Shown: positions 17,014-22,304 of the stretch, piece by piece
Numbering within the stretch: the stretch's first letter is position 1
How the letters are laid out: each line of letters opens with the position of its first letter
Origin: Alphaproteobacteria bacterium
GTDB lineage: Bacteria; Pseudomonadota; Alphaproteobacteria; Rhizobiales; JAKIUO01
NCBI GenBank assembly: GCA_024279115.1
Contig: JAJRRW010000093.1
Span: 1-46,804 of the forward strand
Direction of reading: 5' to 3'
Length of the DNA: 46,804 nt
Program-made: the position numbers and the translations under genes
Notes under the pieces: generated by a model
Database searches by the model: none
What the model was told of the DNA's origin: nothing
What the model saw: the letters and a program-made list of their open reading frames with translations, nothing else

Positions 17014-17979
17014 ATGCGTTCTTTGGGGTTTGGGATCGAAAAGCTGGGACTGGCTCCCCTTCGATATCCCTGGCAAATATTGGTTTTACTACTGGCTTTT
17101 ACCGCCTTTTGCTTTGTTGGTTTGTTTAATTTGCAGCCCGAGGGCCGGTTGAGTGAGGTTTACCGTGGCGATTCCGCAAATTATACGGACTATGAAAAGA
17201 TAAACGAGCTGTTCCCGGTCAGCGAACTGGATGTCTTGTTGCTGATCAGCGGTAAAAACCTGCTGGAGCAAAAAACCCTTGCTGAAATCCGCGCTATTCA
17301 AGAAGAAGTCGAATTCTTCGACGGCGTCGATAGCACGATTTCCATGTTCTCCCTGCGCGGCAAACCATCTGCCACTGGCGCCGCGCCCCCCTTGTTTGCC
17401 GCCGATCTCACAGAAGCCAAGAAAGAGGCGTTTGACAAGGCCATCACACAGATCAAAGAGCATCCTGATGTGCTGGAAAACATGCTGACACGCGTGGCAC
17501 CCGACGGCCACCAAACCAGCTTGATCATTGTCACCTTGAAGGAAGAGGCCATCAAGGAAGGCACGCTGTATGGCGTTTTGGAAAATCTCAAGAAACAGGT
17601 GGGTGAGCTGACAGAACCGGCCAATCTGACGTTCCAGCTATCGGGCGTGCCGGTCATACAGCAAGAAATCCGCAATTCCATCAATCATGATGCTGTGGTT
17701 TTTAATATTGGCGGCTTTTTGCTTGGCACAATGATCAGCTTCTTTTTCATTCGCCGTTTCGCACTGGTCATCATGGTATCAATCGCCAGCATATTCGCCA
17801 ATATCTGGGTGCTTGGCATTCTGGGGCATTTTGGCCAGACATTGAATGCCTTTATGACCATTGTACCCCCGTTGATCATGGTGATTGCCGTGTCGGACGG
17901 CATGCATATGGTGTTGGCCATCCTGGCTGATCTGCAAAAGGGCAAAAGCAAACACCAAGCCATCAAAACGCCGTGCTGA
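17014..17979 (+). pseudogene. RND/MMPL-family exporter, 5' part (frameshifted)
   Basis: First 321 residues of an RND-superfamily permease of the MMPL type (COG1033-like), a proton-driven exporter of lipids or hydrophobic compounds. GGGAG precedes the ATG. TM1 (PWQILVLLLAFTAFCFVGLF) is followed by a periplasmic loop of about 190 residues, then TM2-TM4 and the start of the family signature VSDGMHMVLAILADLQKGKS. The frame breaks at the A-run 17965-17968: reading goes ...HQAIKTPC-stop, whereas one extra A would give ...HQAIKNAVLTIGP and join the next entry exactly. Either a one-base deletion has inactivated the gene, or the base is missing from the assembly. Confidence 0.85.
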
Positions 17980-19385
17980 CTATTGGCCCGGCCTGCGTGC
18001 TGACCTCGATCACCACCACCATTGCCCTGCTCTCCATGACCATCACAGACTCAGCCGTGATCCGCACCTTTGGCATCACCGCCGCCATGGGAACCCTGGC
18101 CGCCTTTGTCGCTGTTATCCTGGTGATTCCCACCTTGAGCATGCTGATGATCAGGGACGAGAAAAATTACCGCAGCGACGAAAATAATAGCTGGACGGCC
18201 CTGCAAAAAATTGAAGACCTGTCACGCTCCTTTGCCGATTGGACCTTTAAATGGTGGCGCGATCTGGCGGTGGTTGGCCTGGTGGTTTGTGGCTTTTTCT
18301 CCATATTGCATTACCAGCTGGCACCAAAATACCAGCTGCGCGATGAAATACCCAATATTCCGGCCCTGACCAAAGCCATGAACCTCGTCGATGACAAGCT
18401 AGGCGGCGGCGACTATATCCACATTCTCGTCAATCATCCAAAAGACAAGACCGCCACGTCCAAAGATGTGCTCGCCTCCATTGGCGAGGCCCATCGATTG
18501 CTGGGCAATCTGCCGCAAGTCAGCGATGTAAATTCTCTCGAAAAAACCAGATTATGGTTCCGTAATAACGGCATAGACAATCCCGCCTATTTGAAGAACT
18601 ATATTGATAAAATGCCGGATTATTTACGCCAGCGCCTCATCAATAAAGATCGAAATGCCGCGATTGTCAGCGCCAAAATTGCCAATATGCCGTCGCCAGA
18701 GATTGCGAGACTGGTTAAAAATATCAAGGAAAACCTCAAAAATATGGAAGAGGAGTTTCCGGGCATCAAGTTCACGATCTCGGGGCTGTCGACCGTCTCT
18801 GCGTTGCAAAGTACCAATATCATTTCGCAGCTCAATCAAGGGCTGCTGCTGGCCATCGTGGTGGTGGTATTCCTGATCGGCATTGCCTTTCGCTCGGTTC
18901 GGGTTGCCTTGATCAGCATCCCCACCAACCTGTTGCCAATTGTCGCCGCCGGGGCCGTGCTGCATTTCACCGATAGCGGCCTGCAATTTGCCAGTATTCT
19001 GGGGCTGACTGTGGCCTTTGGGCTCGCGGTGGATGACAGTATCCATTTTTTCAACAGGCATCGTATTGAGCGACACCTACTGCTTGGCGCGGCGGCCGAT
19101 AGCGCTGTGGGACACCTTCCCCAGGACATTTTTGACAAGGAAATTCAGTGTGTAAAAAACACCATCACCCATATGGGGCCCGTTCTCATTCTCACGACGC
19201 TCATTTTGATCTGTGGGCTGGCAGTGACCGTTTTGAGTAACTTGTCGGTCACCAGATTGTTCGGCGAACTCAGCATGGCAACCTTGACCGCCGCCCTGTT
19301 GGCCGACTTGTTCTTTTTGCCAGCGATCATTCTTGCGACACTCTATCTCATGCAGACTTATTTCTCCTTGCGTAAGTCTAGCTAG
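17973..19385 (+). pseudogene. RND/MMPL-family exporter, 3' part (frameshifted)
   Basis: Continues the exporter in the next reading frame for about 470 residues. It begins LTIGPACVLTSITTTIALLS, a standard MMPL segment that should follow directly on the 5' part. It holds the rest of the first membrane domain, the second periplasmic loop (about 18290-18830) and the second TM bundle, with the repeated signature GLAVDDSIHFFNRH in place of the first domain's SDGMH. The only nearby start is a GTG at 17973 overlapping the upstream stop, without a ribosome-binding site, so independent translation is unlikely. The 3' part has no other damage, which points to a recent mutation or a sequence error. Confidence 0.85.
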
Positions 19386-20999: not shown

Positions 21000-21359
21000 C
21001 TAACACACCGAGCCAAAAGAACCATCGCTCGATCCTTGTGGTGGGGTAAGGCCGGCCAGACGACAGCCTTGCACAACGGGACCGCCTGGAAGAATACTGA
21101 ATAAGTAGCGACTGCCACCTCTGGCGCCAAAATGGGCTTCCAGAGCATCGTGACACATGCGAAGCGGCAGACTTTGATCTTCGGAATAGACCGCCTGCAC
21201 GGTCCGGATGACTTCCCAATGTTCGTCAGTCAGTTCCAAACCATCTTTTTTGGCGATCATTTTGGCATCATGCATGGTCCAGCCGACAGGAGCATTGCAA
21301 AATCGCTTGTCTGTTTCGGCGCTGCCGGGGTGCAAAATATCGTGCATTGTCGTTGGCAT
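21000..21359 (-). CDS. DsrC/TusE-family sulfur-carrier-like protein with altered C-terminal arm
   Basis: 119 residues starting MPTTMHDILHPG, with GAGGAGAG upstream of the ATG fixing the start. The DsrC/TusE signature is clear: FCNAPVGWTMHDAKMIA, GLELTDEHWEVIRTVQAVY, SRYLFSILPGGP and QGCRLAGLTPPQG. DsrC and TusE carry sulfur on a C-terminal arm, on a Cys next to the C-terminus (CysA) and, in DsrC, a second Cys eleven residues earlier (CysB). Here the CysB position is kept (Cys99), the CysA position is Ser110, and nine extra residues end in a terminal Cys119. No other dsr or tus genes are near. Family assignment is firm; the role is open. The start of the divergent or upstream DUF2189 gene is on the same strand. 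Confidence 0.82.
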   Translation of the reverse strand: MPTTMHDILHPGSAETDKRFCNAPVGWTMHDAKMIAKKDGLELTDEHWEVIRTVQAVYSEDQSLPLRMCHDALEAHFGARGGSRYLFSILPGGPVVQGCRLAGLTPPQGSSDGSFGSVC

Positions 21360-21503
21360 TTTTCTCTCCTCGCGATTGAACTGTGACCTGCCCACCTCAA
21401 CTATATGCGCCAAACTGTCGCAGGCCAAGAGCAATCCAGAAGAAATTTCAATCAAACACCAACAGAGGCCGGTAAACACGAGCAAAGGCCGAAAAAACGC
21501 CCC

Positions 21504-22304
21504 TTATTCATCCGGAATGAGCTTGCGATACAAATGCCAGGTGGCGTGACCAAGGATCGGCAGGGCGAAAAACAACCCCACCAACAATGTCATGAACGAT
21601 ACAATGAATGACATGCCAATGATAAATAACCAGATAAGCATGGCTTTGGGGTTTTTGACCACGGATTTTACGCTGGCAATCATCGCCGTCACAAAGTCAA
21701 CATCCCGGTCGTACAGCAATGGAAATGATACAACCGTCAATGGAAAGACCGTCAGGGCGAAGACAGCTCCAAAGAAGTTGCCAATGACAAAGAACAAGGC
21801 CCCGGACGGTGTCGTCAACACGGCATTGATCAAATCAGGTAGCGAAATGGCCTGCAGGCCAAAAAACATCAAATAGATGAAGACCGCAAAATCCACCCAG
21901 ACAATCAGCGAGAAAACAGTCACAACAGCCATCCAGGCGAGGTCCTTGCCGCAGCACAGACGCATCGCTGAAAAGACATGTCCCCAGTTTAACTCTTCTT
22001 CGCGCTCGCGGCGCCTTGAGACCTCATAAAAACCGGCTGCTAAAAAAGGCGCAACCAGAGCAAAGCCAGCAAGAAGAGGATAAAACAGGTAGGGAAGCTC
22101 AAGGAGCATGAGAAGCGCATAAAGAAACCAGCCGCCAATCGCATAGATTCCGCCAATCGCAAGTCCATATTTGGGGTCATTGCGAAAATCTCGAATACCT
22201 TTGCCCAAACTATCAATAACATCCCCATATTCAATCTTATTAATATTTATGGATGTGTTTTTATTCTGTATCGAACCCGTTTTTTCTGCGTTTGCATTGC
22301 TCAT
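21504..22304 (-). CDS. DUF2189 integral membrane protein
   Basis: 266 residues, with GGAGGG before the ATG. After a polar 30-residue N-terminus (KIEYGDVIDSLGKGIRDFRN) there are six hydrophobic segments, arranged in pairs, at about residues 48-70, 74-96, 120-145, 165-185, 190-205 and 235-260. The pattern and the motif VAPFLAAGFYEVSRRREREE match the DUF2189 family of alphaproteobacterial inner-membrane proteins, whose function is unknown. It is transcribed toward the DsrC-like gene (145 bases apart), so they may share an mRNA. It diverges from the phosphatase gene. Confidence 0.85.
   Translation of the reverse strand: MSNANAEKTGSIQNKNTSININKIEYGDVIDSLGKGIRDFRNDPKYGLAIGGIYAIGGWFLYALLMLLELPYLFYPLLAGFALVAPFLAAGFYEVSRRREREEELNWGHVFSAMRLCCGKDLAWMAVVTVFSLIVWVDFAVFIYLMFFGLQAISLPDLINAVLTTPSGALFFVIGNFFGAVFALTVFPLTVVSFPLLYDRDVDFVTAMIASVKSVVKNPKAMLIWLFIIGMSFIVSFMTLLVGLFFALPILGHATWHLYRKLIPDE

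Follow-up and report, generated by a model that had tools for sequence, protein, structure and literature searches.

An FGSV-tailed clade of DsrC paralogs associated with reverse-Dsr genomes

A 119-residue protein encoded at positions 21000..21359 of the 46,804-nucleotide stretch of DNA analysed here (the window) belongs to a real clade of DsrC paralogs, which is marked by a conserved C-terminal FGSV tail and by the absence of the arm cysteine CysA, and which is tied to genomes with reverse-Dsr (rDsr) genes, with linkage to sulfur genes in several lineages. With a probability of about one half, the FGSV protein serves reverse-Dsr sulfur oxidation as a DsrC-fold accessory, which would not carry sulfur in the way DsrC does and whose tail would bind a partner.

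The initial annotation named the interval without a strand. It is the minus strand that encodes the protein (ATG at 21359, stop at 21002-21000); on the plus strand of the same interval, the frame read is interrupted by a stop codon. GAGGAG at 21366..21371 of the minus strand is a likely ribosome-binding site judging from its position before the ATG. The next gene upstream, at 21504..22304 on the minus strand, encodes a DUF2189 integral membrane protein. Within the window's genus, dN was 0.06-0.23 in 10 pairs and dS was 0.64-2.6 in the 8 pairs where it was computable, indicating that the gene behaves as one under purifying selection.

Profile searches placed the protein above the cut-offs of Pfam DsrC PF04358 (66.7 bits, cut-off 24.9) and TIGR03342 (62.5, cut-off 53.5), in agreement with the DsrC/TusE-like assignment of the initial annotation, and below that of the TusE equivalog NF008562 (59.1 vs 191). 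Alignment with the DsrC chains of the PDB and the genome's own DsrC put Cys99 (21063..21065, minus strand) on CysB and Ser110 (21030..21032, minus) on CysA, past which nine residues, SDGSFGSVC (codons 111-119, 21003..21029, minus), run to the terminal Cys119, exactly as had been read initially. DsrC in the strict sense has a penultimate CysA with CysB eleven residues earlier; here, CysB is kept and serine replaces CysA. TusE is characterized by the presence of CysA, and Cys occupied this column in 0/35 aligned rows of the clade. The protein is thus neither an ordinary DsrC nor an ordinary TusE and has a longer arm, and the cysteine pattern, described earlier as the reverse of that in TusE plus an extension, is confirmed as such: according to the available part of PMC3397948, organisms without DsrAB keep the CysA equivalent and in most cases have A, S, or T in place of CysB. 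The possibility that Cys119 is an ordinary CysA following a loop insertion was rejected, since the CysA column aligns gap-free and holds S, A, T, or V in 35 relatives.

For the phylogeny of DsrC-like proteins with this tail, which the initial annotation had suggested, 134 matches were reduced to 89 distinct closed proteins, and 37 two-cysteine DsrC were thinned to 17. Trees were built from approximately W27 to P107, with the N-terminus and the tail removed, leaving only 85 columns, a number the tool warns is few. Although made without the tail columns, a separate FGSV clade was recovered both in a tree of 69 (35 rows, support 98/91) and in a tree of 84 with more paralogs (36/36 with zero outsiders, support 98/93; L070, L148, and L078 were left out). 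Among 61 genomes, namely the window's own and 60 relatives, a full-length relative was present in 11 and some match in 16. Of the 31 relative loci, 26 (L040-L065) fell in the clade and L066-L070 were other DsrC-family proteins. The hosts of L040-L065 were mainly Alphaproteobacteria or Hyphomicrobiales metagenome-assembled genomes, plus the named strain Thermopetrobacter sp. TC1. Eight further clade genomes came from class, phylum, and order samples, bringing the clade to 36 proteins in 35 genomes (two in G658) and extending it beyond the window's class (G658, G706, and G789). The class sample contained the clade in 2/385 genomes (any match in 6) and the order sample in 20/397 (any match in 43/397).

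The tail motif D-x-S-F-G-S-V-x is conserved across the clade. Counts over the 35 rows were 30 for D112, 29 for S114, 32 for F115, 34 for G116, 32 for S117, and 25 for V118, compared with a median of 0.67 for the top-residue fraction at residues 20-119. The CysA column comprised S in 15 rows, A in 15, T in 4, and V in 1, and the CysB column C in 32, S in 2, and A in 1; with the second G658 copy, which has M at this position, CysB is missing in 4/36 proteins, all of which retain the tail. That second copy (L131, G658:C1:1272900-1273500) therefore bears the FGSV tail without any arm cysteine. Position 119 was Cys in 5/35 rows, exclusively in the window's genus (5/5 members), and the last residue of the remaining 30 rows is A, R, S, L, V, H, M, Y, or Q; of these 30, 27 keep the FGS core. 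The motif was lost in three clade members (L049, L059, and L109). The proposal that the displaced terminal cysteine is the functional point of the arm is thus not borne out: the tail itself is the conserved feature of the clade, with the terminal cysteine a genus-level detail. Since FGS is kept in rows without Cys119 and a single clade is recovered without the tail columns, the tail is an old, retained feature and the terminal cysteine a recent one.

The window's genome carries five DsrC-family genes, all above the PF04358 cut-off in a profile search, and a dsr cluster on contig 15, read as dsrB, EFH, C, M, K, L, J, O, P, and N with gene calls that, like those for the neighbour loci, come from simple scripts. 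In this cluster dsrB, a TusB/DsrH subunit, DsrK, and DsrO were above the NCBIfam cut-offs, whereas DsrM (155.8 vs 300), DsrJ (53.7 vs 100), and DsrP (63 vs 350) gave matches below them; the cluster DsrC was above the family cut-off, dsrN matched CobB, and DsrL was named by reading alone. Of the genome's own dsrA, only an 81-base piece was seen, on a different contig from the cluster. A check for DsrE genes, also suggested at the outset, found three of the DsrE family (PF02635), two in the dsr cluster and one on contig 65. The gene content of the organism is thus that of a reverse-Dsr sulfur oxidizer. In the 46.8-kb window a tblastn panel found no dsr, apr, or sox gene, and its lone DsrL match (28%) was dropped as actually being the small subunit of glutamate synthase. 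The initial statement that no sulfur oxidation genes are nearby thus holds for the window, within the reach of this panel, and fails for the genome.

Several other features were recorded. One DsrC paralog of the window's genome (L007:8158-8493, contig 93) has neither arm cysteine and an RRKGGY tail; KGGY endings recur in L025, L063, L078, L079, L135, L139, and L143, and the proteins with this ending do not group as a single clade in the 84-row tree, from which L078 was left out. A second paralog (L003:1465-1830, contig 130) has CysB only and the tail RQPRAWSTG, and ten tree rows with an ending of this type form one clade (100/99). A third (L004:1483-1782, contig 28) has CysA only and ends in MKPITKYGGLPKPTGCV, and is resembled by L144, L146, and L147. 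Two DsrC-family proteins of two lineages (L138 and L066), without arm cysteines and with an RTKGEH ending, pair at 100/99. In addition, an MMPL-type transporter at 17014-19385 of the window reads as an ORF of 321 aa overlapping one of 470 aa, in place of which a relative from the genus has a single ORF of 796 aa. The dsrN-like gene of contig 15 (L006:10563-11966) is likewise divided between ORFs of 223 and 242 aa, the former of which matches no more than the front half of CobB. Each split is a frameshift or an assembly error.

In none of the samples examined for both did the clade turn up without dsr genes. A dsrA gene above the curated cut-off was present in 33/35 clade genomes, and the remaining two had dsrB plus pieces of dsrA. 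Among the named genomes the figure was 25/26, with a dsrB-like match in the 26th accompanied by two dsrA pieces, each at the start of a contig, and a further 13/13 handles, representing eight new genomes and five identical to named ones, were also above the cut-off. In the 61-genome set, which overlaps with the 26 named genomes and is thus not independent of them, the clade occurred in 11/16 dsr genomes versus 0/45 others (Fisher 1e-8, shared ancestry ignored). These 16 comprise 14 genomes above the dsrA cut-off plus G000 and G002, counted on dsrB; with both counted as dsr-less, the comparison becomes 9/14 versus 2/47 (5e-6, shared ancestry ignored). In the phylum sample, where loci were retrieved for some matches and others were judged by where they end, the clade was present in at least 7/398 genomes, that is, in at least 7/53 dsr genomes (52 by search plus G000) versus 0/345 seen elsewhere (Fisher 5e-7, shared ancestry ignored). 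The earlier impression of a protein remote from sulfur oxidation therefore does not extend beyond the window, as the genome has a dsr cluster and the clade co-occurs with dsr. The clade protein was absent from 5/16 dsr genomes among the relatives and was not seen, among the matches listed, in 46/53 of those in the phylum sample. With so many dsr genomes lacking it, the protein is an accessory to rDsr rather than a requirement.

Linkage to sulfur genes was found in 10/34 loci read, in several lineages. The neighbours were dsr genes at L046, L048, L056, L057, L060, L124, and L126, apr genes at L058 and L123, and soxA at L061; at L056, L057, and L060, the FGSV gene lies between dsrAB and soxB-soxA. 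In the other 24/34 loci, including the window, the flanks read, many of which are short, contained none of these genes. Within the loci, dsrA, soxB, soxA, aprA, aprB, and the CobB-type dsrN were checked, and the remaining names rest on tblastn, from which the dsrC query, matches below 60 bits, and DsrL matches of 28-33% in the window and L127 were excluded; L048, L056, and L058 supplied query genes and hence match themselves. A DUF2189 homologue lies upstream in 5/5 members of the window's genus, where it is a constant neighbour, and a DUF4202 gene directly precedes the FGSV gene, in the same orientation, at L046, L048, L058, and L126, beside dsr or apr genes; at L124 it is 4.9 kb away. Neither qualifies as a fixed operon partner: DUF2189 turned up upstream in the window's genus alone, and a search for DUF4202 gave no match in the window's genome, where the gene may still be present, as the control genomes gave none either. 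A literature search found no paper naming this domain. At L044, L047, L059, and L062-L065, the scanned neighbour genes showed nothing in common.

Structure prediction, proposed initially for the arm, gave an AlphaFold model with a mean pLDDT of 77.7 in which residues 113-119 were below 50, leaving the tail without a confident model. Foldseek returned A. vinosum DsrC as the top hit (E 1.7e-4, TM 0.61) and the sole match under E 0.001, followed by a DsrC-family protein of Acinetobacter (E 0.02).

According to the available text of PMC3397948, sulfur from DsrEFH binds A. vinosum DsrC at Cys111 (CysA) only, loss of Cys111 makes the binding to DsrEFH much weaker, and Cys100 (CysB) is irrelevant to sulfur binding. 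The FGSV protein has kept the helical core of DsrC and the arm up to CysB, and CysA, the sulfur-accepting cysteine of DsrC, is replaced by an extension ending D-x-S-F-G-S-V-x. In the accessory reading, the protein might dock on DsrAB, DsrEFH, or DsrMK/DsrL as DsrC does, or elsewhere via its tail, and would modulate or help the docked partner without carrying sulfur. Docking on a Dsr partner is plausible because the helices and the arm to CysB are kept, and sulfur carrying in the same way is not expected because CysA, the sole sulfur site in A. vinosum DsrC, is missing. The missing sulfur-carrying cysteine together with the conserved tail suggests a helper or control role rather than sulfur carrying, and the kept FGS tail is, from its conservation, the best candidate for the contact site of a partner; the initial idea that the longer arm serves a different partner is plausible. 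Against the accessory reading stand the 24/34 loci without a dsr, apr, or sox gene in their often short flanks, the dsr genomes that lack the protein, the three clade members without the tail motif, the low model confidence of the tail, the disregard of shared ancestry in the Fisher tests, and the few tree columns, as well as the retention of CysB in 32/36 proteins, for which a purely structural role offers no explanation. DsrC-like proteins without CysA are reportedly described as RspA-like in Venceslau 2014, with a regulatory role proposed, and the window protein fits this definition, a regulatory function being putative for it.

A more specific variant, which is tentative, holds that sulfur oxidizers have a set of DsrC-fold paralogs with distinct conserved tails (PTGC, FGSV, RAWSTG, KGGY, and KGEH), each addressing another Dsr partner, and that the FGSV protein, which lacks a sulfur-carrying cysteine, enters the DsrC site of a partner, for example DsrAB, and blocks or gates it. 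It is doubtful, in turn, that the protein regulates or co-regulates the transcription of dsr genes, with its helical DsrC core sitting on DNA or on a regulator and the tail providing the contact. The available part of PMC7787665, citing Venceslau 2014, ascribes a putative role in transcription regulation to DsrC itself, the loss of CysA is compatible with a non-catalytic role, and the weak Foldseek look-alikes include the DNA-binding proteins Cre and Zur, which at E 0.5 or worse carry no weight alone; against this, 24/34 loci have no dsr, apr, or sox gene in reach, and a literature search on DsrC with promoter or DNA binding gave only unrelated work. Sulfur carrying through CysB as a single cysteine is unlikely: Cys occupies that position in 32/36 proteins, but the equivalent Cys100 does not matter for sulfur binding in A. 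vinosum DsrC (PMC3397948, available part), and the four members without CysB keep the tail. For the window's genus, Cys99 could pair with the terminal Cys119 on the longer arm as a new redox or persulfide couple, and both cysteines are present in 5/5 members at dS 0.64-2.6 where computable. This pairing is nevertheless improbable, as Cys119 is missing from 30/35 rows of the clade, CysB is lost in 4/36 proteins, and with dN at 0.06-0.23, the constancy of the last residue over five species says little. The reading as an ordinary tRNA-thiolation TusE, whose Pfam family the protein shares, has next to no chance given the NF008562 score and the absence of CysA, whose position contradicts it.

A literature search found no description of an FGSV-tail clade, although one may exist in subscription papers, which were mostly outside its scope, and no two of the terms SFGSV, FGSVR, and DsrC were found together in one paper; the available parts of PMC10504309, PMC13293266, and PMC11636981 describe no such tail. 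A viral DsrC group without the second C-terminal cysteine is known (available part of PMC4164917), and in a scan of viral contigs for phage carriage, 8 stretches matched the pattern and none was confirmed as a relative. Genomes of sulfur oxidizers hold several DsrC-family genes with unsettled roles, such as the four besides dsrC in A. vinosum (PMC3368242, available part), and several occur in the Riftia symbiont, four of them detected as proteins (PMC7787665, available part). The present clade, marked by its tail rather than by cysteines and present in the named strain Thermopetrobacter sp. TC1, offers a concrete experimental handle. Should the FGSV protein turn out to gate DsrAB or DsrEFH, biological sulfur oxidation would have a control point in it.

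Compared with known systems, the FGSV protein shares family and fold with the TusE type (E. coli-like; PDB 7syb, a DsrC-family sulfurtransferase), whereas TusE retains CysA and the window protein retains CysB instead and adds the tail. A. vinosum DsrC (PDB 1yx3) is its best PDB match both by sequence (1.9e-18) and by fold. The two, together with the DsrC encoded on contig 15 of the window's genome, have in common the Pfam DsrC core, the arm through CysB, and the AGL-x-x-P segment. The FGSV protein differs from DsrC in lacking CysA, in its nine extra residues with the FGSV tail, and, like most of its relatives, in the stretch before W27. Finally, the extra copies of A. vinosum and the Riftia symbiont, whose tails the available parts of the cited papers do not describe, are a likeness in that both of these sulfur oxidizers also have multiple DsrC-family genes.
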